Shown here: in pieces, positions 22,123-64,000 of the stretch | How positions within the stretch are numbered: the first letter of the stretch is position 1 | How the letters are laid out: each line of letters opens with the position of its first letter | Origin: Deltaproteobacteria bacterium | GTDB taxonomy: Bacteria > Myxococcota_A > UBA796 > GCA-2862545 | Assembly (NCBI GenBank): GCA_007693595.1 | Contig: REDI01000028.1 | Coordinates: 1-64,000, forward strand | Direction: 5' to 3' | DNA length: 64,000 nt | Made by a program: the position numbers and the translations under genes | The notes under the pieces: generated by a model | What the model was told of the DNA's origin: nothing | Seen by the model: only the letters and a program-made list of their open reading frames with translations | Databases searched by the model: none

Positions 22123-24540
22123 ATGCCGACCCTCTCCGAGCGTCTCTCTGGCTCTGGCCGCGCAGGAACGCGCGCTGTGCTCGGGCCGACCAATACGGGC
22201 AAGACCCATCTCGCGCTCGAGCGTATGCTCCTGCATCGAACGGGCATGATCGGCCTTCCACTCCGGCTGCTCGCCCGCGAGGTGTACGAGCGGCTGGTCG
22301 CCAGGGCCGGGGAGGGGGCGGTGGCCCTCATCACCGGCGAAGAGAAGATCAAGCCTTCGACCGCACGATATTACGTGTGCACCGTCGAGGCGATGCCGAT
22401 GGACCGGGCGGTGCACTTCCTGGCGGTCGACGAGGTCCAGCTCGCGGCCCATCGAACCCGTGGCCACGTCTTCACCGATCGCCTGCTGCACGCTCGGGGC
22501 GTCGACGAGACCCTCTTTTTAGGCTCGGACACCATCGCCCCCGCCCTGGAGCAGCTCCTCCCCGGCGTTCAGATCAGCGCGCAGCCCCGGCTGAGCGAGC
22601 TGCGACACCGCGGGCACGTCAAGCTCAGGGCGGTGCCCAAGCGGTCCGCGGTGGTGGCCTTCTCGGCCGAGCAGGTCTACGCCCACGCCGAGCGGCTCCG
22701 CGCGCGCCACGGTGGCTGCGCCCTGGTCCTGGGGGCCCTCTCTCCGCGCACTCGCAACGCCCAGGTCGAGCTGTATCAGTCCGGTGCCGTCGATCACCTG
22801 GTGGCGACCGACGCCATCGGCATGGGGCTCAACATGGACATCACCCACGTCGCCTTCGCGGATCGGAGCAAGTTCGACGGCCGAAACCACCGCCCCTTGG
22901 GCGACGCGGAGCTCGCTCAGATCGCGGGTCGCGCAGGTCGCCACACGCGCGAGGGCACCTTCGGCACGACCGGAGGCTGTCCTCCTCTTCGTCCCGAGAC
23001 GATCGAGGCCCTCGAAGCGCACCGCTTCCCCCCCATCCCCCGCCTTTGGTGGCGCAACCCTCAGCTGGACTTCTCGAGCCCCGAAGCGTTACTCGCCTCT
23101 CTCGAGGCCAGGGCCCCTCACCGGATGCTCCGTCGCATGGCTGACGCCGAAGACCACCGCACCCTCACCGCGCTGCTCGACCTCGCGGAGGTGCGGGCCC
23201 GGCTGGGCTCCGAGGCCGACCTGCGGCTGCTCTGGGAGGTCGCGCAGATCCCGGACTACCGAAAGACGCTCACGAGCCAGCACGCCGAGCTCCTGGCCGA
23301 GGTCTACGCGCTGCTAACCGATGAAGGAGCCCTTTCGTATTCATGGATCGCAGAGCGTCTGGATCGCCTGGATCGCAATCAAGGGGACCTCGACGCCCTC
23401 ATGACCCGGATCGCCTATGTCCGGACTTGGGCCTACGTGAGCCACCGAGCGGACTGGAACGAAGATCCCTCCGGCGCTCAGCAACAGGCCCACGCGATCG
23501 AAGACCGCCTCTCGGACGCCCTTCACGACAAGCTCACCGCCCGCTTCGTCGACCACGCCATCGCCGTATCCGTGCCAGGTCTCACGCTCCCTCGTGCCGA
23601 GGTGCTGGAGGATGGGGGGATCCACGTCGCGGGGGTGGAGCGCGGGCGCTTGGCGGGCCTGGAGCTCGTCAAGGCAGGGGAGGGGAGCGCCGCTGAGCCG
23701 GTGCGACGGGCCGCTATCGACGCGCTCCGCGACCGGGTTCGCGCGCTCTGCGACGACGACGACGAGGCCTTCGCCATCACTCGGACCGGGGAGCTGCGCT
23801 GGCGCGACACGCCGGTCGCGACGTTGCAGCCCGGGGACGTGCTGGCCCGGCCCCGGATCCGGCTGCGCCACTTCCCCGAGCTCGACTCCCTGTCGGTCGC
23901 GGCGGTCGGAGACCGTCTGCGCCGGCTCACGGAGGCGAAGGTCGGAACCTTGATCGGGAGCCTCTGGCGGCGACCCGGACGCCAGCTCCCGCCCCTCGGC
24001 CTCGACGTGCTGCTGGCGCTTGAGCGCGGCCTGGGTACCGCCGAGATCGACGAGGTCACACACGCTCTCGAAGCGCTCGACCGAGGCGACCGAAACCGGC
24101 TCGCCCGCCTCGATGTGCGCATCGGCTGCCGCGTCCTCTATCTGCCAGGCGCCCTCAAGCCCGCAGCCCGAGCTCTTCGGGCCACCCTCTGGCGTGTCCA
24201 CCACGGCGAGGCCCCTGCCCTACCTGCCGACGGTGCGACCTGCGTCGAGGTTCAGGGCCCATCGAACTTCTACCTCTCCATCGGCTTTCCGACGTCGGGG
24301 GGGTACGCGGTACGGGCCGACGTGCTCGAGAGAGTCTACGCCCTGGCCCGCCGGCTGGGGCGCGCTGGCCCCTTTGGGCTCCCCCCCGAGGTCCCGAGCT
24401 GGCTGGGGAGCGATCGCGAGATCGCAGGGCGAGTGCTCGACGGACTTGGTTATCAGAGGGTCGATCTGTCCCCCGAGCCCCGATTCGTACCCCCACCGCC
24501 TCGGCGCGACCGTCCGTCGCGCTCCCCGAGGAGACGATGA
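22123..24540 (+). CDS. SUV3-like DExH-box RNA helicase
   Basis: The 805-residue protein has the SUV3 helicase core, known from mitochondria and many alphaproteobacteria, where it unwinds RNA or DNA 3' to 5'. Walker A is GPTNTGKT (21-28); motif II is DEVQ (103-106); 'GLPLRLLAREVYERL' and 'ALITGEEKI' are characteristic of the family. The second RecA domain has 'TDAIGMGLNMDITHVAFADR' and motif VI QIAGRAGR (266-273). A long helical C-terminal region follows and ends in a basic tail. The ATG at 22123 has GGAG upstream. The last four bases overlap the next gene (ATGA). There is no degradosome partner such as PNPase in the window. Confidence 0.9.
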   Translation: MPTLSERLSGSGRAGTRAVLGPTNTGKTHLALERMLLHRTGMIGLPLRLLAREVYERLVARAGEGAVALITGEEKIKPSTARYYVCTVEAMPMDRAVHFLAVDEVQLAAHRTRGHVFTDRLLHARGVDETLFLGSDTIAPALEQLLPGVQISAQPRLSELRHRGHVKLRAVPKRSAVVAFSAEQVYAHAERLRARHGGCALVLGALSPRTRNAQVELYQSGAVDHLVATDAIGMGLNMDITHVAFADRSKFDGRNHRPLGDAELAQIAGRAGRHTREGTFGTTGGCPPLRPETIEALEAHRFPPIPRLWWRNPQLDFSSPEALLASLEARAPHRMLRRMADAEDHRTLTALLDLAEVRARLGSEADLRLLWEVAQIPDYRKTLTSQHAELLAEVYALLTDEGALSYSWIAERLDRLDRNQGDLDALMTRIAYVRTWAYVSHRADWNEDPSGAQQQAHAIEDRLSDALHDKLTARFVDHAIAVSVPGLTLPRAEVLEDGGIHVAGVERGRLAGLELVKAGEGSAAEPVRRAAIDALRDRVRALCDDDDEAFAITRTGELRWRDTPVATLQPGDVLARPRIRLRHFPELDSLSVAAVGDRLRRLTEAKVGTLIGSLWRRPGRQLPPLGLDVLLALERGLGTAEIDEVTHALEALDRGDRNRLARLDVRIGCRVLYLPGALKPAARALRATLWRVHHGEAPALPADGATCVEVQGPSNFYLSIGFPTSGGYAVRADVLERVYALARRLGRAGPFGLPPEVPSWLGSDREIAGRVLDGLGYQRVDLSPEPRFVPPPPRRDRPSRSPRRR

Positions 24541-29576: not shown

Positions 29577-30806
29577 TCAGGGGATCAGGGTGTGCCGGGT
29601 CTCGGCCGAGCCATAGGCTCGTGGGGTCAGCTCGATGAGGGTGTTCAGCGGGATGTCGATCTGTGGGACCTGCTCCGCAGACTCGTCAGCAAAATAGGCG
29701 TATAAGGAACGGATCACCGCGTTGTGCGCAATCACGAGCACCGGGCGCCGCTGGCGCTCCAGCTCGATCAACACCGGATCGAGACGCTGGAGCACATCGA
29801 GGTAGGACTCGCCGCGCGGATAGCGGTATCTGAGCTTGTCGGCTCCCCGCTCCGCAAACTCCTCGGGAGCTTGATCGCGCACCTCGGCGTAGGTCCAGCC
29901 GTCGTAGACCCCGGCATCGATCTCATCGAGGGGCTTCCAGGGGCGGAAGCTACGGCCAAGCTCGGCCGCGGTCTCGCGGGTGCGACGCAAGGTGCTCGTC
30001 CAGACCACCAGATCCGGCACATTCTGGCGGTCGAAGAACTGCTTCAGCGCACGCCCGTACGCTCGCCCGCGCGCGGTAAGCCCCGCGTTCCCGCCAATCC
30101 GGTCTTGAACATTGAAGAGGCTCTCGCCGTGGCGCGTGAGCCAGATCCGTCGGGGGCTCAAGTGAAGGTTCATCAAGAAGGGGACGATTCGACTCGGTAG
30201 GTAGCCGGTGAGGCGATGGACTTGGAGCTGTCGACCGGCATCGATGATGCGCACCCAGCTCGCGTCAGGCTCGTCCACTGGCTCGTAGGCGCGCTCGTAC
30301 ATCGCGATCCGACGCTTGAAGTCTGCGACAGCCTGATCGGGGTCCACGTCTCGGTAGTCCGGGGACCGGAGCTTGGTCTCGCGGATGGTGTGGTCGAGCA
30401 CGGCGGGATCGTCGCAGACCGATTCGACGAAGAGCACACGGCACCCCGCCGCCTCGCAGGTCTCGCGGACCCAGCGGCGCCGGGCCTTGGTGCTGTTCGT
30501 CGCGTCATAGAGGCCAACCTCTCCGCCCGCCTGCAGCCAGCCCAGCATGTCCTTCAAGGCGGCCTCGGCCATGGCTCGGCGGGCGGCCACGCCCTCGGGG
30601 TTGGTCGGATCGAAGAAGTCGGCAGGTTGTTGCGCCCCGAGGCGCTCCCTTCGGTAGTTTCCGACGTTGAAGACCCGAGCGGCGCGGCCCTGCCAGCGAA
30701 GATACCTCGACAGCTTACGGGCGGTGTAGGTCTTGCCGCGCGCGGGCAAGCCGACCATGACGATGACCAGTCGATCGCTCGCGGGGTGGTCGAGGGTCGG
30801 GGGCAT
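29577..30806 (-). CDS. 6-phosphofructo-2-kinase / fructose-2,6-bisphosphatase (PFKFB-like)
   Basis: A 409-residue bifunctional enzyme that, by homology, makes and breaks fructose-2,6-bisphosphate. The kinase half has Walker A GLPARGKT (19-26), 'FNVGNYRRE' and 'DATNSTKARRRWV'. The phosphatase half has the phospho-His motif LTRHGES (223-229), 'RIGGNAGLTARGRAYGRAL', 'VWTSTLRRTRETA', 'EIDAGVYDGWTYAEV', 'RYRYPRGESYLDVLQRL' and 'VIAHNAVIRSLYAYF'. These are nearly those of animal and yeast PFKFB core domains, without their N- and C-terminal regulatory extensions. Both catalytic halves look intact. GGAG precedes the ATG. It diverges from the gamma carbonic anhydrase gene across 58 bases. Confidence 0.93.
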   Translation of the reverse strand: MPPTLDHPASDRLVIVMVGLPARGKTYTARKLSRYLRWQGRAARVFNVGNYRRERLGAQQPADFFDPTNPEGVAARRAMAEAALKDMLGWLQAGGEVGLYDATNSTKARRRWVRETCEAAGCRVLFVESVCDDPAVLDHTIRETKLRSPDYRDVDPDQAVADFKRRIAMYERAYEPVDEPDASWVRIIDAGRQLQVHRLTGYLPSRIVPFLMNLHLSPRRIWLTRHGESLFNVQDRIGGNAGLTARGRAYGRALKQFFDRQNVPDLVVWTSTLRRTRETAAELGRSFRPWKPLDEIDAGVYDGWTYAEVRDQAPEEFAERGADKLRYRYPRGESYLDVLQRLDPVLIELERQRRPVLVIAHNAVIRSLYAYFADESAEQVPQIDIPLNTLIELTPRAYGSAETRHTLIP

Positions 30807-30864
30807 CGATACTCCGGGGGAGGCTGGGTCGTGCCCGCCCTAACCTGACCGCCCCGGAGGGCTC

Positions 30865-55883: not shown

Positions 55884-56900
55884 TCAGCGATGGCTGGGAT
55901 CGCGCAGGAGTTCGGCGACTCGCTTCATGACGGGCTGCAGGCTGCTGTGGGTCACGGCACGCACCGCTTCGTCGACGGGGAACCAGGCCACATCCGAGAT
56001 CCCTTCCGAAGCACGAGGCGTGAAGCCCTCGATGGGCTCCAGCGGCTCGAGCAGGTAGAGGTAGACGCTCTTCAGTCGAGGATGTCCCCCTGGGATGAGA
56101 AAGCCGTAGCGCGCCGTGTCGATGAACTTCATGACCTTGAGGGCCGCCGAGATCCCGAGCTCCTCTTGCACCTCGCGGATCGCCGTCGCTTCGGGCGTCT
56201 CGCCCGGCTCCAGCTTGCCCTTGGCGACCTCCCAGGTCGCGCCGGACCGGCGGGTCACCTTGACCAAGGCGAGCTCAAACCCGCCATCGGAGGCCCGTCG
56301 GACCGGGAATCCCCCGGCGGAGTGCTGCTCGGCGTAGCCCTCCTGTAGGTTGAGGATGGCGGAGGTGGGGATCGGGGAAGAGAGATACAGGCCCGTCTTT
56401 CGGTTTCGAAAGAACGAGACGCCTTTGCGTCGCGCGCGGCTGGCGTCGATCACGAGCACCTCAGGGAGGGCGCCCCGGAGCCGATGCGCCACCCGCCAGG
56501 CGTGAGCCTCGTCGCCCGAGAGATAGACGTGCCGCTCGGGTCCCGCGGTGAGGAGGTCTTGATCCCGGACCTCAGCGGCCCTCTCTGCCGTGGTCGCGTG
56601 GTAGAGGATGTCGGGTGGGGTGCAGCGAGGGTGGCGACGGGGCGCTCGCCACTTCTCCTTGGCGCGACTTCGGGAGAGCGCGCGGATCCGAAGCTCGCGG
56701 ACCTCGAAGCGCGTCGTTTGGGCTCCGGTGACCAGGTCACGAACCACGGTGGTGGTGACCTCGGTCCGCATAAGCTTAGACGCCGCTCGGCAAGCCTCCT
56801 CGAGCGGGACCCACCCCTGCTCGTCGGGCTTCAGCCCGCCTACCTCGGGGCGATGCCGAAGCAGGAAGGCGAGGGTCTTAGAGAGGCGAACACGATCCAT
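55884..56900 (-). CDS. KptA/Tpt1-like RNA 2'-phosphotransferase fused to Nudix hydrolase
   Basis: The 338-residue product joins two enzymes. Residues 1-180 match KptA/Tpt1, which removes an RNA 2'-phosphate using NAD+: 'LSKTLAFLLRHRPEVGGL' with Arg15-His16, 'GWVPLEEACRAA', 'ILYHATTAERAAEV', 'RHVYLSGDEAHAWRVAHR' and 'GVSFFRNRKTGLYLSSPIP'. The usual RAxQGHS segment is divergent ('IRALSRSRAKEKW', 72-84), so activity may be changed. Residues 200-335 form a Nudix domain with a complete Nudix box (228-250, starting GKLEPGET and containing REVQEELGI). Nudix enzymes hydrolyse nucleoside diphosphate derivatives, so the fusion may clean up ADP-ribose-phosphate products. The ATG at 56900 has no good upstream alternative. 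Confidence 0.9.
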   Translation of the reverse strand: MDRVRLSKTLAFLLRHRPEVGGLKPDEQGWVPLEEACRAASKLMRTEVTTTVVRDLVTGAQTTRFEVRELRIRALSRSRAKEKWRAPRRHPRCTPPDILYHATTAERAAEVRDQDLLTAGPERHVYLSGDEAHAWRVAHRLRGALPEVLVIDASRARRKGVSFFRNRKTGLYLSSPIPTSAILNLQEGYAEQHSAGGFPVRRASDGGFELALVKVTRRSGATWEVAKGKLEPGETPEATAIREVQEELGISAALKVMKFIDTARYGFLIPGGHPRLKSVYLYLLEPLEPIEGFTPRASEGISDVAWFPVDEAVRAVTHSSLQPVMKRVAELLRDPSHR

Positions 56901-57784: not shown

Positions 57785-59818
57785 TCACCGCGGCTGCCTC
57801 AGGCTCTGGATCCGCTCGACCTGCCACTGCATGTAGACATCGTCGGGCAGCAGCCGCGCGGCCTCGGTGGAGGCGTGCAAGGCTTGGTCGATCTCTCCGC
57901 GGGCGACGTGCACGACGGCCTTGGTGTCGAGGTAGTCTGAGCGCGGTCCCTCGATCCGAAGCGCGCGGTCGACCAGCCGGAGCGCTCGGTCGAGATCCTG
58001 CTGCGCCAGGGCGAGGTACCAGGCCGTGCAGTTGTGCCGGCCGCTCCGGCTCGAAAAGGCCTCGCAGTCCCGCTCCAGCCCCTCGCTCAGGTAGGTCTGG
58101 ACGCGCTCTTCATCACCGATGACCCGATACGAAGCCACCAAGAAGTCCAACGGCCGAAGCTGGGGGTGCAGCCGCTCCGTCGCTTCGAGCAGATCGGACC
58201 GAAACGTCGCGATGTCGGCCTCGTCGCGCAGGAGCGAGGCGTAGAACCACTGCGCCTTGCCGTCGGTCGGGTATTCCCGCACGAGCTGGCGAACCCGCGC
58301 CATCGCACCATGGTGATCGCCCATCCTCAGCGCGAGCCGGGATCGGCGAAGCAAGAAGCCCGAGGGGTTCTGGCGGAGTCTGGCCGCCTGGATCAGGGCA
58401 TCGTTCGCCTCATCGAGCCGATCGGTGGCGGCCAGGGCGTCGGAGAGCGCCAGGTGGGCCTGCGCCGCCTCGGGGCGCACCAGCGCGGCCTCGCTCGCCA
58501 AGCGCAGCGCTTTTTCAACCTCGCCATCCAAGATCAGGCCGTTGACACCCGAGATGATCTCGTCTTCGTCGACCAAGCCCTCGGGCCCGAGATCGCCCAG
58601 GGCCTCCCACGCTGCGGGGAGGTCTGCCCGGTAGCGCAAGGCGCGGGCCAGGAGCACCCGACCCTCGGCGTCGTCAGGGTAGTTGTCGATCCAGCGGCGG
58701 AGATGCTCGATCGCACGGTCGGTTCGATCGAGGGCGATCAGGTAGCGCGCTCGCTGCAGATCGCGCTCCGGAGCGCGGGGGCCGAAGGCCTTGAGATCTT
58801 GGGCGAGGAGGATCTTGTGGCCGTCGCGCAAGCGCTTGGGGCCCCAGGAGCGCTTGAGGGCCAACCTTCCATCGACGGGATCGAGCCAGACTCGATGATC
58901 CGCGAGGAGCTGATGCCCGATGAGCCCCCGCGTCGCGAGGCTGGGCGCACCCCTGTGGGTGTCGTACCCGAGCCACTGCGCCTGAAGGTCTACGTCGAAG
59001 GTTCGGCCTCCGAGCTCGACCCGCTGAACGGGGATCCGTCGGGTCTGCTTGAGGAACTGGCTCGGCGGGAGGAACTCGCTGGCCCCGACGCCGTAGACCG
59101 GCTCCAGCCCCTCGGAGGCGACACCCGCGAAGGGGCGCCCGGTCGCGCCAGCGAAGAGCAGGGCGCTCGCTCCAGTGTCGAGCTGGACCGTGACGGTCTC
59201 GGTTACGACAGGGTCGGAGTCGGTCGTGACCGTGATGCGGGTCTCGATGGCGTTGCCCACCTGGCGGAGCTCGCCGCCTCGCTTGAGCGGGGGCCCGTCC
59301 CCTGGGCGCAGGAGCAGCATGCGGTCCTTGGGATAGTCGATGCGCAAGGTGAAGCGCTTCCAGGTTTCCATGCCCAGGATACCCGCGACAGGCATGAAGC
59401 CCGCGGTGCTGCTCACCCCGCGAACGCCGACGGCGAAGGGAACCTCTCGGAGGGTCGCGTCCCCGAGCACCAGCTCCGGCGCGACCGCGCGACCGGCGGT
59501 GGTGCGCCCGCTCAACCCCGCCAGGGAGTAGCGCTTCTCTTCGATCTCGAGCCCAAGCTCCTGCGCGACCTCCCGGTGCAGGACGTTGACGTCCGCTCCG
59601 GTGTCGACCAGGAAGAGCAAGTGAGGGGAGTCACCGATCGTGGCCTGGACGTAGATCCGGTTCGCTCCGGCGGCTGGGCGCAAGAGATCGAGCTTCACGC
59701 GGCGAGGCCCCTCCCAGCACAGAGAGCACCCCTCGTCCGAGAGCTGAGGGAGGCGGGGGCGCGCACAGCCTGCGAGCATCCCGAGGATCGCTAGCCCGAA
59801 AAGTGCGCGCACCGACAT
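57785..59818 (-). CDS. Lipoprotein with tandem retropepsin-like domains and TPRs
   Basis: The ATG at 59818 gives 677 residues with a lipoprotein signal (MSVRALFGLAILGMLAGC). Two retropepsin-like aspartic protease lobes follow. The first has 'HLLFLVDTGADVNVLHREVA' with Asp-Thr-Gly and 'VAGILGMETWKRFTLRIDYP'; the second has 'VTVQLDTGASALLFAGA' and 'TRGLIGHQLLADHRVWLDPV'. Retropepsins usually dimerise to form one site; here both halves are in one chain. From about residue 350, TPR-like helical repeats fill the rest ('LDRTDRAIEHLRRWIDNYPD', 'ALSDALAATDRLDEANDALI', 'VVHVARGEIDQALHASTEAA'). The substrate is unknown. AGGAGGG lies upstream. Confidence 0.85.
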   Translation of the reverse strand: MSVRALFGLAILGMLAGCARPRLPQLSDEGCSLCWEGPRRVKLDLLRPAAGANRIYVQATIGDSPHLLFLVDTGADVNVLHREVAQELGLEIEEKRYSLAGLSGRTTAGRAVAPELVLGDATLREVPFAVGVRGVSSTAGFMPVAGILGMETWKRFTLRIDYPKDRMLLLRPGDGPPLKRGGELRQVGNAIETRITVTTDSDPVVTETVTVQLDTGASALLFAGATGRPFAGVASEGLEPVYGVGASEFLPPSQFLKQTRRIPVQRVELGGRTFDVDLQAQWLGYDTHRGAPSLATRGLIGHQLLADHRVWLDPVDGRLALKRSWGPKRLRDGHKILLAQDLKAFGPRAPERDLQRARYLIALDRTDRAIEHLRRWIDNYPDDAEGRVLLARALRYRADLPAAWEALGDLGPEGLVDEDEIISGVNGLILDGEVEKALRLASEAALVRPEAAQAHLALSDALAATDRLDEANDALIQAARLRQNPSGFLLRRSRLALRMGDHHGAMARVRQLVREYPTDGKAQWFYASLLRDEADIATFRSDLLEATERLHPQLRPLDFLVASYRVIGDEERVQTYLSEGLERDCEAFSSRSGRHNCTAWYLALAQQDLDRALRLVDRALRIEGPRSDYLDTKAVVHVARGEIDQALHASTEAARLLPDDVYMQWQVERIQSLRQPR

Positions 59819-59828
59819 GCTCCTCTCA

Positions 59829-59848
59829 GCTACCCTCCTGAAGGTAGC
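59829..59848. promoter_or_regulatory. Inverted repeat in divergent promoter region
   Basis: GCTACC (59829-59834) and GGTAGC (59843-59848) are perfect inverted repeats, eight bases apart, followed by another GGTAGCC at 59861-59867. The site lies between the retropepsin gene (minus) and the EAD-like gene (plus), so it may be a shared operator. Confidence 0.35.
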
Positions 59849-59930
59849 CCCTCCGGGGCCGGTAGCCAACCTCCGCCCATCCCGAAGAGTCGTGCCTTCC
59901 CGGACAGGCCCGACGCGATACACTCTGACC

Positions 59931-60899
59931 ATGGAGCTCTCGCCCGAAGATCGCTCATCGCTCATAAGCCACCTGACGGTGCGGTTCTCGGACTACACAA
60001 CGCGTAGCTCCCTGGCGCGACAGGTGGGTCTGGGCGACGTGCAGCTCACGGGTCCCGCCGAGGCGGTCTGGACGGACCTTCTCTCGGAGGCCCTTCGACG
60101 GGAGCGTCTGATCCCGCTCCTGCGAGCAGCGGCGGAGGCTTCGCCAGGCGACGACACCCTCCGGCGCATCGCCGAGGCAGCCGCGGCGGGGCAGCTCCGG
60201 ATCCCCCCGGTGGAGCGGGCCTCTGACTGGCTCAAGTGGGCGGTCTTGGCGGGCGGGATCGTGGTGCTGCTCGGGGTGATCGCTGTGTTCGCCGATTCGG
60301 TACGAGCGGGCCGCGACGCCCCCGAGCCGGCCATGGCTGGGTCCTCGGAGTCCACCTCGGGCCCGATCCCTTCCCCCACCGCGGATCGCGCCGCGTCCGA
60401 ACGGCACCTCGAGCCCGAACCTCAGGCTGGGGACTCCAGCTCCGCGCCGGGGAACGAGCCCGAGGCGAGCGCTCCCCTCGACGCCCCTCCCGAGGTCGCG
60501 CTCGCGCCTCCCGCTGATCCTCAGGAGACAGACCCAGAAGCGACCCAGGAAGTGCCCGAACCCGCCGAATCCGAGATCGACATCGATCCCCCGCTCACCT
60601 CATCCGAGCCCGTCTCGCTCCCCTCGGGTCGCGGGCCCTGCCACGCGGAGCGGGGGGTTCTCTTGGGCTACGCCTACGCCGGCTCCAAGAAGCCTGGAGG
60701 GCGGGGCGACATCTGGCTTGTACGCCAGAGCGTCAACGTGCGCAGCGACTATCCCCGCCCCGAGAACAGCTGGAGCGCGCGCGCTGCGGTACGCTGTGTC
60801 TTGCCGACAGGCTCGCGCGTTGACCTGATCAAGGAACCCCTCGCAGTCGAGGGCGGGGCCTACTGGGTCCCCATCTACGGAGGCGCGGTCTCGCCATGA
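59931..60899 (+). CDS. EAD-like, single-pass membrane protein with SH3-like domain
   Basis: The ATG at 59931 gives 322 residues. Residues 1-90 are helical and resemble the effector-associated domain (EAD) class of death-like adaptor domains: 'MELSPEDRSSLISHLTVRFS', 'AVWTDLLSEALRRERLIPLL' and 'RAAAEASPGDDTLRRIAEAA', with the typical spacing of L, PGD and LRR. A membrane helix at about 100-122 ('LKWAVLAGGIVVLLGVIAVF') follows. A long Pro/Glu/Ser-rich linker then leads to an SH3-like domain ('VRQSVNVRSDYPRPENSWSA', 'VLPTGSRVDLIKEPLAVEGG'). The cytoplasmic adaptor plus outward binding domain suggests a signalling or immunity receptor. The coaX start overlaps its stop (ATGA). Confidence 0.72.
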   Translation: MELSPEDRSSLISHLTVRFSDYTTRSSLARQVGLGDVQLTGPAEAVWTDLLSEALRRERLIPLLRAAAEASPGDDTLRRIAEAAAAGQLRIPPVERASDWLKWAVLAGGIVVLLGVIAVFADSVRAGRDAPEPAMAGSSESTSGPIPSPTADRAASERHLEPEPQAGDSSSAPGNEPEASAPLDAPPEVALAPPADPQETDPEATQEVPEPAESEIDIDPPLTSSEPVSLPSGRGPCHAERGVLLGYAYAGSKKPGGRGDIWLVRQSVNVRSDYPRPENSWSARAAVRCVLPTGSRVDLIKEPLAVEGGAYWVPIYGGAVSP

Positions 60900-62622: not shown

Positions 62623-64000
62623 ATGGAAGCGCAAGGGTGGATCGTATCGTTCGCAGGCGGCGAGGTCCGGGGGACACAGCCCAGCGTCGAGAAGCTCGGC
62701 CTCAAGGCGGCGGGGCTGGTCGAGCTCGCACAGCTCGGAGTGCCCGTGCCCGAGGGCTTCACCATCCTCACCTCAGCGTGCGAGGCCTTCCAGTCGGCCG
62801 ACGGCTGGCCCCGCGCCTTGACCCAGGAGCTCGATCAGGCGGTGACCGAGCTCGAAGAACGCACGGGGCGCACCCTGGGCGATCCCTCCAACCCGCTGCT
62901 GCTCGCCATCCGCTCAGGAGCCTCGGTTCCAATGCCGGGCATGATGGACACCGTGCTCGATCTGGGCTTGAACGACAAGACGGTGCGGGGCCTCGCCGAG
63001 CGTACCGGCGACCCGCGCTTCGCCTGGGACAGCTACCGCCGCTTCATCCAGATGTATGGCGACATCGTGCTCGGGGTCCACCACACCCGCTTCGTGAAGG
63101 CGCGCGAGGATCTCTACGGAGGAAAGCCCCTCGAAGAGCTGAGCGCCGAGGAGCTGGCCAAACTCTCGGAGCGCTACCGGCAGGTCATCGCGACCGCCGG
63201 GCGGACCTTTCCCCAGGGCCCCCGCGAGCAGCTCCGATCTGCCATTGAAGCGGTCTATCGGTCCTACAACAGCCACCGGGCACGCTACTATCGAAAGACG
63301 CACCAGATCGGCGATGATCTAGGAGTCGCCGTCACCGTCCAGCGCATGGTCTTTGGCAACCGCGCCGAGAGCTCCGGCACCGGCGTCTTGTCCACTCGCA
63401 ACCCCAAGACCGGCGAGCCCGGCGCCTTCGGGGAGTGGATACCCGGCGCGCAAGGCTCCGACGTCAGCCGGGGCGGGATCACGCCGGCTCCCCTCGCAGG
63501 CGACTCGACCACCGATCACGCGAGCCTTCAGGAGCGCTTCCCCGCGGTCTACGACGAGCTGATCCAACTCGGGGAGCGGCTCGAGGCCCATTTCCGTGAT
63601 CTACAAGAGCTCGAGTTCACCCTCGAGAACGGCACCCTCTGGGCCTTGCAGACCGGACCCGCGCCTCGGTCCGCCCAAGCTGCGGTCCGGGTGGTGGTGG
63701 ACCTGGCCCACGAAGGCGTGCTCAGCCGCCAAGAGGCCCTCTTGCGGGTCGACCCCGCCCAGCTCGAGCGCATGCTCCGCCCGATCGTCGCACCCGATGC
63801 CCGCCGGCGGGTGCTCGCCACTGGCCTCGACGCCTCGCCCGGCGCCGCCTGCGGTCGGGTCGTCTTCCATGCCGCCGACTGCCAGGAGCTCCTCGAGAAG
63901 GGGGAGCCGTCCATCTTGGTTCGTGTCGACACCTCGCCCGAAGACATCCAAGGCATGACCGTGGCCCAAGGGGTGCTCACCGCGCGGGGGGGCCAGACCT
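62623..64000 (+). CDS. ppdK: Pyruvate, phosphate dikinase, 3'-truncated by window end
   Basis: PPDK converts phosphoenolpyruvate, AMP and PPi to pyruvate and ATP, or the reverse. GGAGG four bases before the ATG at 62623 fixes the start (MEAQGWIVSFAGGEVRGTQ). The N-terminal ATP-grasp domain has 'LGLKAAGLVELAQLGVPVPE', 'AIRSGASVPMPGMMDTVLDL', 'AQRMVFGNRAESSGTGVL'-like and 'EWIPGAQGSDVSRGGITPAP'. The segment just before the phospho-His, 'SPEDIQGMTVAQGVLTARGG', ends the window, so the catalytic His and PEP-binding domain are not visible. One conserved Arg (LQTR) appears as Gly345 (LQTG). The gene is in a normal location for a full-length enzyme of about 880 residues. Confidence 0.95.
   Translation, partial: MEAQGWIVSFAGGEVRGTQPSVEKLGLKAAGLVELAQLGVPVPEGFTILTSACEAFQSADGWPRALTQELDQAVTELEERTGRTLGDPSNPLLLAIRSGASVPMPGMMDTVLDLGLNDKTVRGLAERTGDPRFAWDSYRRFIQMYGDIVLGVHHTRFVKAREDLYGGKPLEELSAEELAKLSERYRQVIATAGRTFPQGPREQLRSAIEAVYRSYNSHRARYYRKTHQIGDDLGVAVTVQRMVFGNRAESSGTGVLSTRNPKTGEPGAFGEWIPGAQGSDVSRGGITPAPLAGDSTTDHASLQERFPAVYDELIQLGERLEAHFRDLQELEFTLENGTLWALQTGPAPRSAQAAVRVVVDLAHEGVLSRQEALLRVDPAQLERMLRPIVAPDARRRVLATGLDASPGAACGRVVFHAADCQELLEKGEPSILVRVDTSPEDIQGMTVAQGVLTARGGQT

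Follow-up and report, generated by a model that had tools for sequence, protein, structure and literature searches.

A gene on the reverse strand of the window, the 64,000-nucleotide stretch of DNA analysed in this study, encodes a eukaryote-type PFKFB, the bifunctional 6-phosphofructo-2-kinase/fructose-2,6-bisphosphatase. Judging from its sequence, the gene is probably a functional PFK-2/FBPase-2, by which the level of fructose-2,6-bisphosphate (F2,6BP) would shift flux between gluconeogenesis and glycolysis, with class I fructose-1,6-bisphosphatase (FBPase) as the likeliest target in the window organism. The features of the gene are as follows.

29577..30806, reverse strand: PFKFB, bifunctional 6-phosphofructo-2-kinase/fructose-2,6-bisphosphatase, 409 aa (ORF, Pfam, phmmer, residue alignment, AlphaFold2 model)
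30153..30779, reverse strand: 6-phosphofructo-2-kinase domain, residues 10-218 (PF01591)
30729..30752, reverse strand: Walker A motif GLPARGKT, residues 19-26 (sequence; G19, G24, and K25 invariant in 106 homologs)
29610..30146, reverse strand: fructose-2,6-bisphosphatase domain, residues 221-399 (PF00300)
30123..30134, reverse strand: phosphatase RHGE motif, residues 225-228, with H226 as the expected phospho-histidine (R225 and H226 invariant in 106 homologs)
29982..29984, reverse strand: R275; Arg in PFKFB2 and Ser in PFKFB3 at the aligned position (R in 106/106 homologs)
29724..29726, reverse strand: H361, second catalytic histidine (invariant in 106 homologs)
30812..30815, reverse strand: GGAG Shine-Dalgarno-like motif, 5 nt before the ATG (sequence)

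The ORF comprises 409 codons and starts with an ATG at position 30806. The protein scored 258 bits against 6PF2K (PF01591; residues 10-218; cut-off, 27 bits) and 123 bits against His_Phos_1 (PF00300; residues 221-399; cut-off, 21.7 bits). The kinase is followed by the histidine phosphatase in one chain, which is the domain order of PFKFB. In a phmmer search against the PDB, human PFKFB3 scored 419 bits over residues 8-400 of the window protein, and any other histidine phosphatase scored about 50 bits or less. The identity to human PFKFB3 was about 50% end to end. The AlphaFold2 model (mean pLDDT, 89.8) has the overall PFKFB fold, with a TM-score of 0.95 and an rmsd of 1.7 to human PFKFB2 (5htk). 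The homology to PFKFB is far beyond chance, and the original prediction of a eukaryote-type PFKFB, as opposed to an unrelated kinase-phosphatase fusion, was borne out. It is the sole PF01591 gene in the 4.9-Mb window genome (G000).

The kinase and phosphatase motifs had also been predicted to be kept almost as in eukaryotes, and the residues were indeed conserved in the window protein and in 106 distinct bacterial homologs. All checked kinase positions, at the nucleotide site and at what is established as the fructose-6-phosphate site, are those of PFKFB3. Invariant residues of the kinase were the Walker A G and K, R52, R53, D101, T103, N104, K145, and R166. The phosphatase set is complete in the window protein, with RHG(E), Glu, the second His, and Arg at the PFKFB1/2 position; R225, H226, R275, E295, R320, K324, R328, H361, and R366 were invariant. 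The E228 position was occupied by E in 87 homologs and by Q in 19, and the R76 position by Leu in the Sorangium/Polyangium clade and in family f31. The Ser of PFKFB3 at the R275-equivalent position is associated with low phosphatase activity; hence, the Arg of the window protein suggests an active phosphatase. With nearly all catalytic residues invariant across the bacterial homologs, the gene copy is apparently intact.

PFKFB exceeded the Pfam cut-off in 83 of 379 sampled Myxococcota genomes (about a fifth), including 21 of the 71 genomes of the window organism's class and 15 of the 21 genomes of its family. A scan of genome contigs yielded 287 relatives; the best 80, which were listed, include loci from Polyangium and, as complete genomes, Sorangium cellulosum and Minicystis rosea. 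An earlier scan of genome contigs with a single sequence as the query yielded no relatives, and no full-length relative was found in the viral and plasmid collections. A Myxococcota-type PFKFB is also present on L026 and L093, MAG contigs whose titles, Rhodobacterales and Klebsiella pneumoniae, are probably erroneous.

The breadth of this distribution bears on the origin of the gene. One rival reading is a recent gain from a eukaryote, or contamination of the MAG, with no established role for the gene. Such an origin would fit the patchiness of PFKFB at the phylum level and the placement of human PFKFB3, whose long branch joins the bacterial tree close to its base; as the single eukaryotic sequence in the tree, it leaves the tree silent on the direction of transfer. 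The eukaryotic sequences compared were from vertebrates only, and the mean identity was 47% between human PFKFB3 and the bacterial homologs and 55% among the bacterial homologs. Against such an origin, the gene has a GC content of 66% (67% for the window), is intronless, and lies on a 180-kb contig; PFKFB occurs in most genomes of the same family and in the complete Sorangium and Minicystis genomes. The bacterial sequences also cluster largely by lineage. The breadth in Myxococcota and the lineage-like tree argue against contamination or a recent one-off transfer, and we consider either to be highly improbable.

In the preferred reading, a bifunctional PFK-2/FBPase-2, the kinase domain would convert fructose-6-phosphate and ATP to F2,6BP, and the phosphatase domain would hydrolyze F2,6BP via a phospho-histidine. 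The balance of these putative activities would set the F2,6BP level, the putative cellular signal, and thereby the flux between gluconeogenesis and glycolysis. A homologous bifunctional enzyme acting on another sugar phosphate, with a signal other than F2,6BP, would be in keeping with the functional breadth of the histidine phosphatase superfamily and with the Leu at the R76 position noted above. However, apart from that position, the residues that align with the PFKFB3 substrate sites do not vary across the phylum, and both domains are close to 50% identical to the vertebrate enzymes. A different substrate is thus unlikely.

The likeliest direct target in the window organism would be its single class I FBPase, inhibited by competition at the active site. 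G000 encodes one class I FBPase, which aligned with human FBP1 through the substrate-site segments, and no GlpX was found in this genome. Class I FBPase was present in 76 of the 83 PFKFB-positive Myxococcota genomes, compared with 126 of the 296 PFKFB-negative ones. The association held after stratification by family (CMH odds ratio, 9; p = 0.0016); this within-family signal comes chiefly from f18 and f31, each with two PFKFB-positive genomes. Class I FBPase was undetected in seven PFKFB-positive genomes, among which G106, G166, and G344 are 95-96% complete. In mammals and Leishmania, class I FBPase is inhibited competitively by F2,6BP (PMC5639204). The single enzyme in G000, the co-occurrence in the phylum, and the inhibition known elsewhere make class I FBPase the first candidate, and we infer that it is the best-supported target in the window organism. 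The gene neighborhood was also considered as a source of functional clues and was rejected: a divergent hexapeptide-repeat protein lies on the 5' side and a protein with no Pfam match on the 3' side, no glycolytic gene adjoins PFKFB in the window genome, and no neighbor family was kept across the phylum in 100 PFKFB loci.

The original prediction favored control of PPi-linked glycolysis, with a PPi-dependent phosphofructokinase (PFK) as the possible target and a pyruvate phosphate dikinase (PPDK) encoded in the window. The PPDK-like ORF, with PPDK_N matches, is present at 62623-64000 on the forward strand and runs past the window end; two more PPDK_N genes lie elsewhere in the genome. It is 32 kb from PFKFB, and no linkage between the two was seen. 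The window genome encodes two single-domain PFK-1s, on contigs C20 (GGDGT/PKTIDND) and C46 (GGNGS/ASIDND); both have Gly at position 104 and no GGDD motif. Under the accepted motif rules, Gly104 is indicative of the use of ATP rather than pyrophosphate. A PPi-PFK target is therefore unsupported in the window genome, and no F2,6BP site was identifiable in any of its phosphofructokinases. The C46 enzyme (L181, G000:C46:83487-84335) and its relatives form a Myxococcota single-domain PFK clade in which GGNGS replaces GGDGS (Asn for Asp at position 103 in E. coli numbering) alongside ASIDND; this clade lies near the tandem PFK halves in the tree.

In relatives, the PPi-PFK idea was partly rescued by the linkage of the two genes in family f14. 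PFKFB divergently adjoins a PFK gene in six f14 genomes, G075, G259, G263, G296, and G345 (genus g45) and G107 (genus g72). In the four g45 genomes checked, the paired PFK is the only PF00365 gene and has the GGDDT/PKTIDND motifs; the G107 partner, likewise the sole PF00365 gene, has GGDGT instead. As read from the sequences, roughly 60-100 bases separate the two start codons in g45 and about 275 bases do so in G107, so that one promoter region may serve both genes. In three other f14 genomes, G170, G224, and G282, the two genes were not adjacent. The PFKFB-positive genomes of f18, f26, and f31 that were checked have only GGDDT-type PFK. A looser tblastn search had placed a PFK beside almost every PFKFB; this result was rejected because the matches came from antisense PFKFB in an over-extended query ORF, and only those of f14 were real.

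In the textbook view, PFKFB and the tandem duplication of PFK-1 are eukaryotic inventions. A tandem two-domain PFK-1 was found in 4 of the 379 Myxococcota genomes, at the following loci.

L183/L285 (G037:C107): tandem PFK-1
L184/L286 (G014:C135): tandem PFK-1
L283 (G211:C271): tandem PFK-1
L284 (G266:C116): tandem PFK-1

Over residues 3-689, the G014 protein and human PFKL are co-linear (577 bits), and the G037 protein scored 596 bits against PFKM. The N-terminal half is of the catalytic type, and the motif of the C-terminal half, PATISNN or PATINNN, resembles PATVSNN/PATISNN of the human enzymes. In eukaryotic PFK-1, the C-terminal half forms the F2,6BP site (PMC12203962). In a tree of PFK halves, the bacterial N-terminal halves grouped with the human ones (100/99), and so did the C-terminal halves (100/99); independent duplications in bacteria and humans were rejected (AU p = 0.0003). 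The tandem clades lie among the Myxococcota single-domain PFKs (93/89). The alignment and tree place the tandem PFK-1s of Myxococcota and humans under one common duplication. The sampled neighbors of the tandem genes include ordinary peptidase families, which makes contamination unlikely, although it is conceivable for G211, whose contig is short. G014 and G037 combine the tandem PFK-1 with PFKFB and class I FBPase; no PFKFB match was found in G211 (94% complete), and G266 is only 67% complete. The window genome has single-domain PFKs only, and a tandem PFK-1 with a degenerate C-terminal half was absent from it. Some Myxococcota may have a full eukaryote-type F2,6BP circuit of PFKFB, tandem PFK-1 with a regulatory C-terminal half, and class I FBPase; PFKFB and the PFK-1 duplication would both have been present in this bacterial lineage and may have reached eukaryotes from there. 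We offer this only tentatively.

These PFKs raise the question of whether the main target of the bifunctional enzyme is PFK, with FBPase merely incidental. The divergent gene pair in two genera, the GGDD-type PFK as the only PFK in the checked f18, f26, and f31 genomes, and the combination of PFKFB with tandem PFK-1 in G014 and G037 would all accord with this reading, as would the activation of plant PPi-PFKs by F2,6BP (PMC12203962). Characterized bacterial PPi-PFKs, however, are reported to be non-allosteric (PMC12203962), PFKFB co-occurs with all PFK types, and no PF00365 match was found in G160 (97% complete), which has PFKFB. Moreover, the window genome has only the single-domain Gly104 enzymes. 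PFK as the main target is an alternative that we judge somewhat less probable than not. Alongside inhibition of class I FBPase, activation of PFK could form a second arm, acting on the PPi-type PFK in f14 and on the eukaryote-type tandem PFK-1 in a few genomes.

Other genes in the window include an 805-aa helicase at 22123-24540 (forward strand) with an 87-bit match to DEXQc_Suv3, the RNA helicase domain of mitochondrial Suv3. A KptA/Tpt1 RNA 2'-phosphotransferase fused to a NUDIX domain is encoded at 55884-56900 (reverse strand). A protein with the effector-associated domain EAD1 (27 bits) is encoded at 59817-60899 (forward strand), immediately preceding the gene for a type III pantothenate kinase.

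A 2026 preprint (PMC12873801) called the control of PFK by F2,6BP "eukaryote-specific," and a 2025 review (PMC12203962) presents the tandem duplication of PFK-1 as eukaryotic. A passage of a 2022 paper (PMC9721465, citing Rider et al. 2004) states that F2,6P2 has not been found in bacteria except Desulfovibrio desulfuricans. The original prediction was right that F2,6BP is rarely considered in bacteria, with D. desulfuricans as the cited exception. Given that precedent and the "eukaryote-specific" label, the window protein adds a new bacterial member to an already known family. In the literature searched, which stops short of many subscription papers, neither PFKFB nor a tandem PFK-1 was found to be reported for Myxococcota. 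The breadth in Myxococcota, the pairing with PFK, and the common PFK-1 duplication appear to be new. For some metabolic genes of eukaryotes, a myxococcal ancestry was put forward earlier (PMC3131387). Wide occurrence of bacterial PFKFB with conserved catalytic sites, the PFK pairing, and the common duplication would reopen the origin of F2,6BP control, and Sorangium, Polyangium, and Minicystis are culturable organisms for testing such control in bacteria.

Compared with vertebrate PFKFB1-4, the window protein has the same domain order, fold, and catalytic residues, with about 46-50% identity over about 400 residues, and shares the Arg at the R275 position with PFKFB2, unlike PFKFB3. It differs in being a bare 409-aa catalytic core with almost no N- and C-terminal regulatory tails, and hence lacks the phosphorylated extensions of the animal isoforms. 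D. desulfuricans, which belongs to another phylum, is a bacterium credited with F2,6BP in the literature. As in the plant system of F2KP, PPi-PFK, and cytosolic FBPase, the f14 genomes combine PFKFB, a PPi-type PFK, and class I FBPase; the f14 set differs in being bacterial and in having PFKFB and PFK as a divergent gene pair. Eukaryotic PFKM/PFKL share their duplication, including the degenerate C-terminal half, with the tandem PFKs of G014, G037, G211, and G266, which differ in being bacterial proteins of about 700 aa confined to these four sampled genomes.
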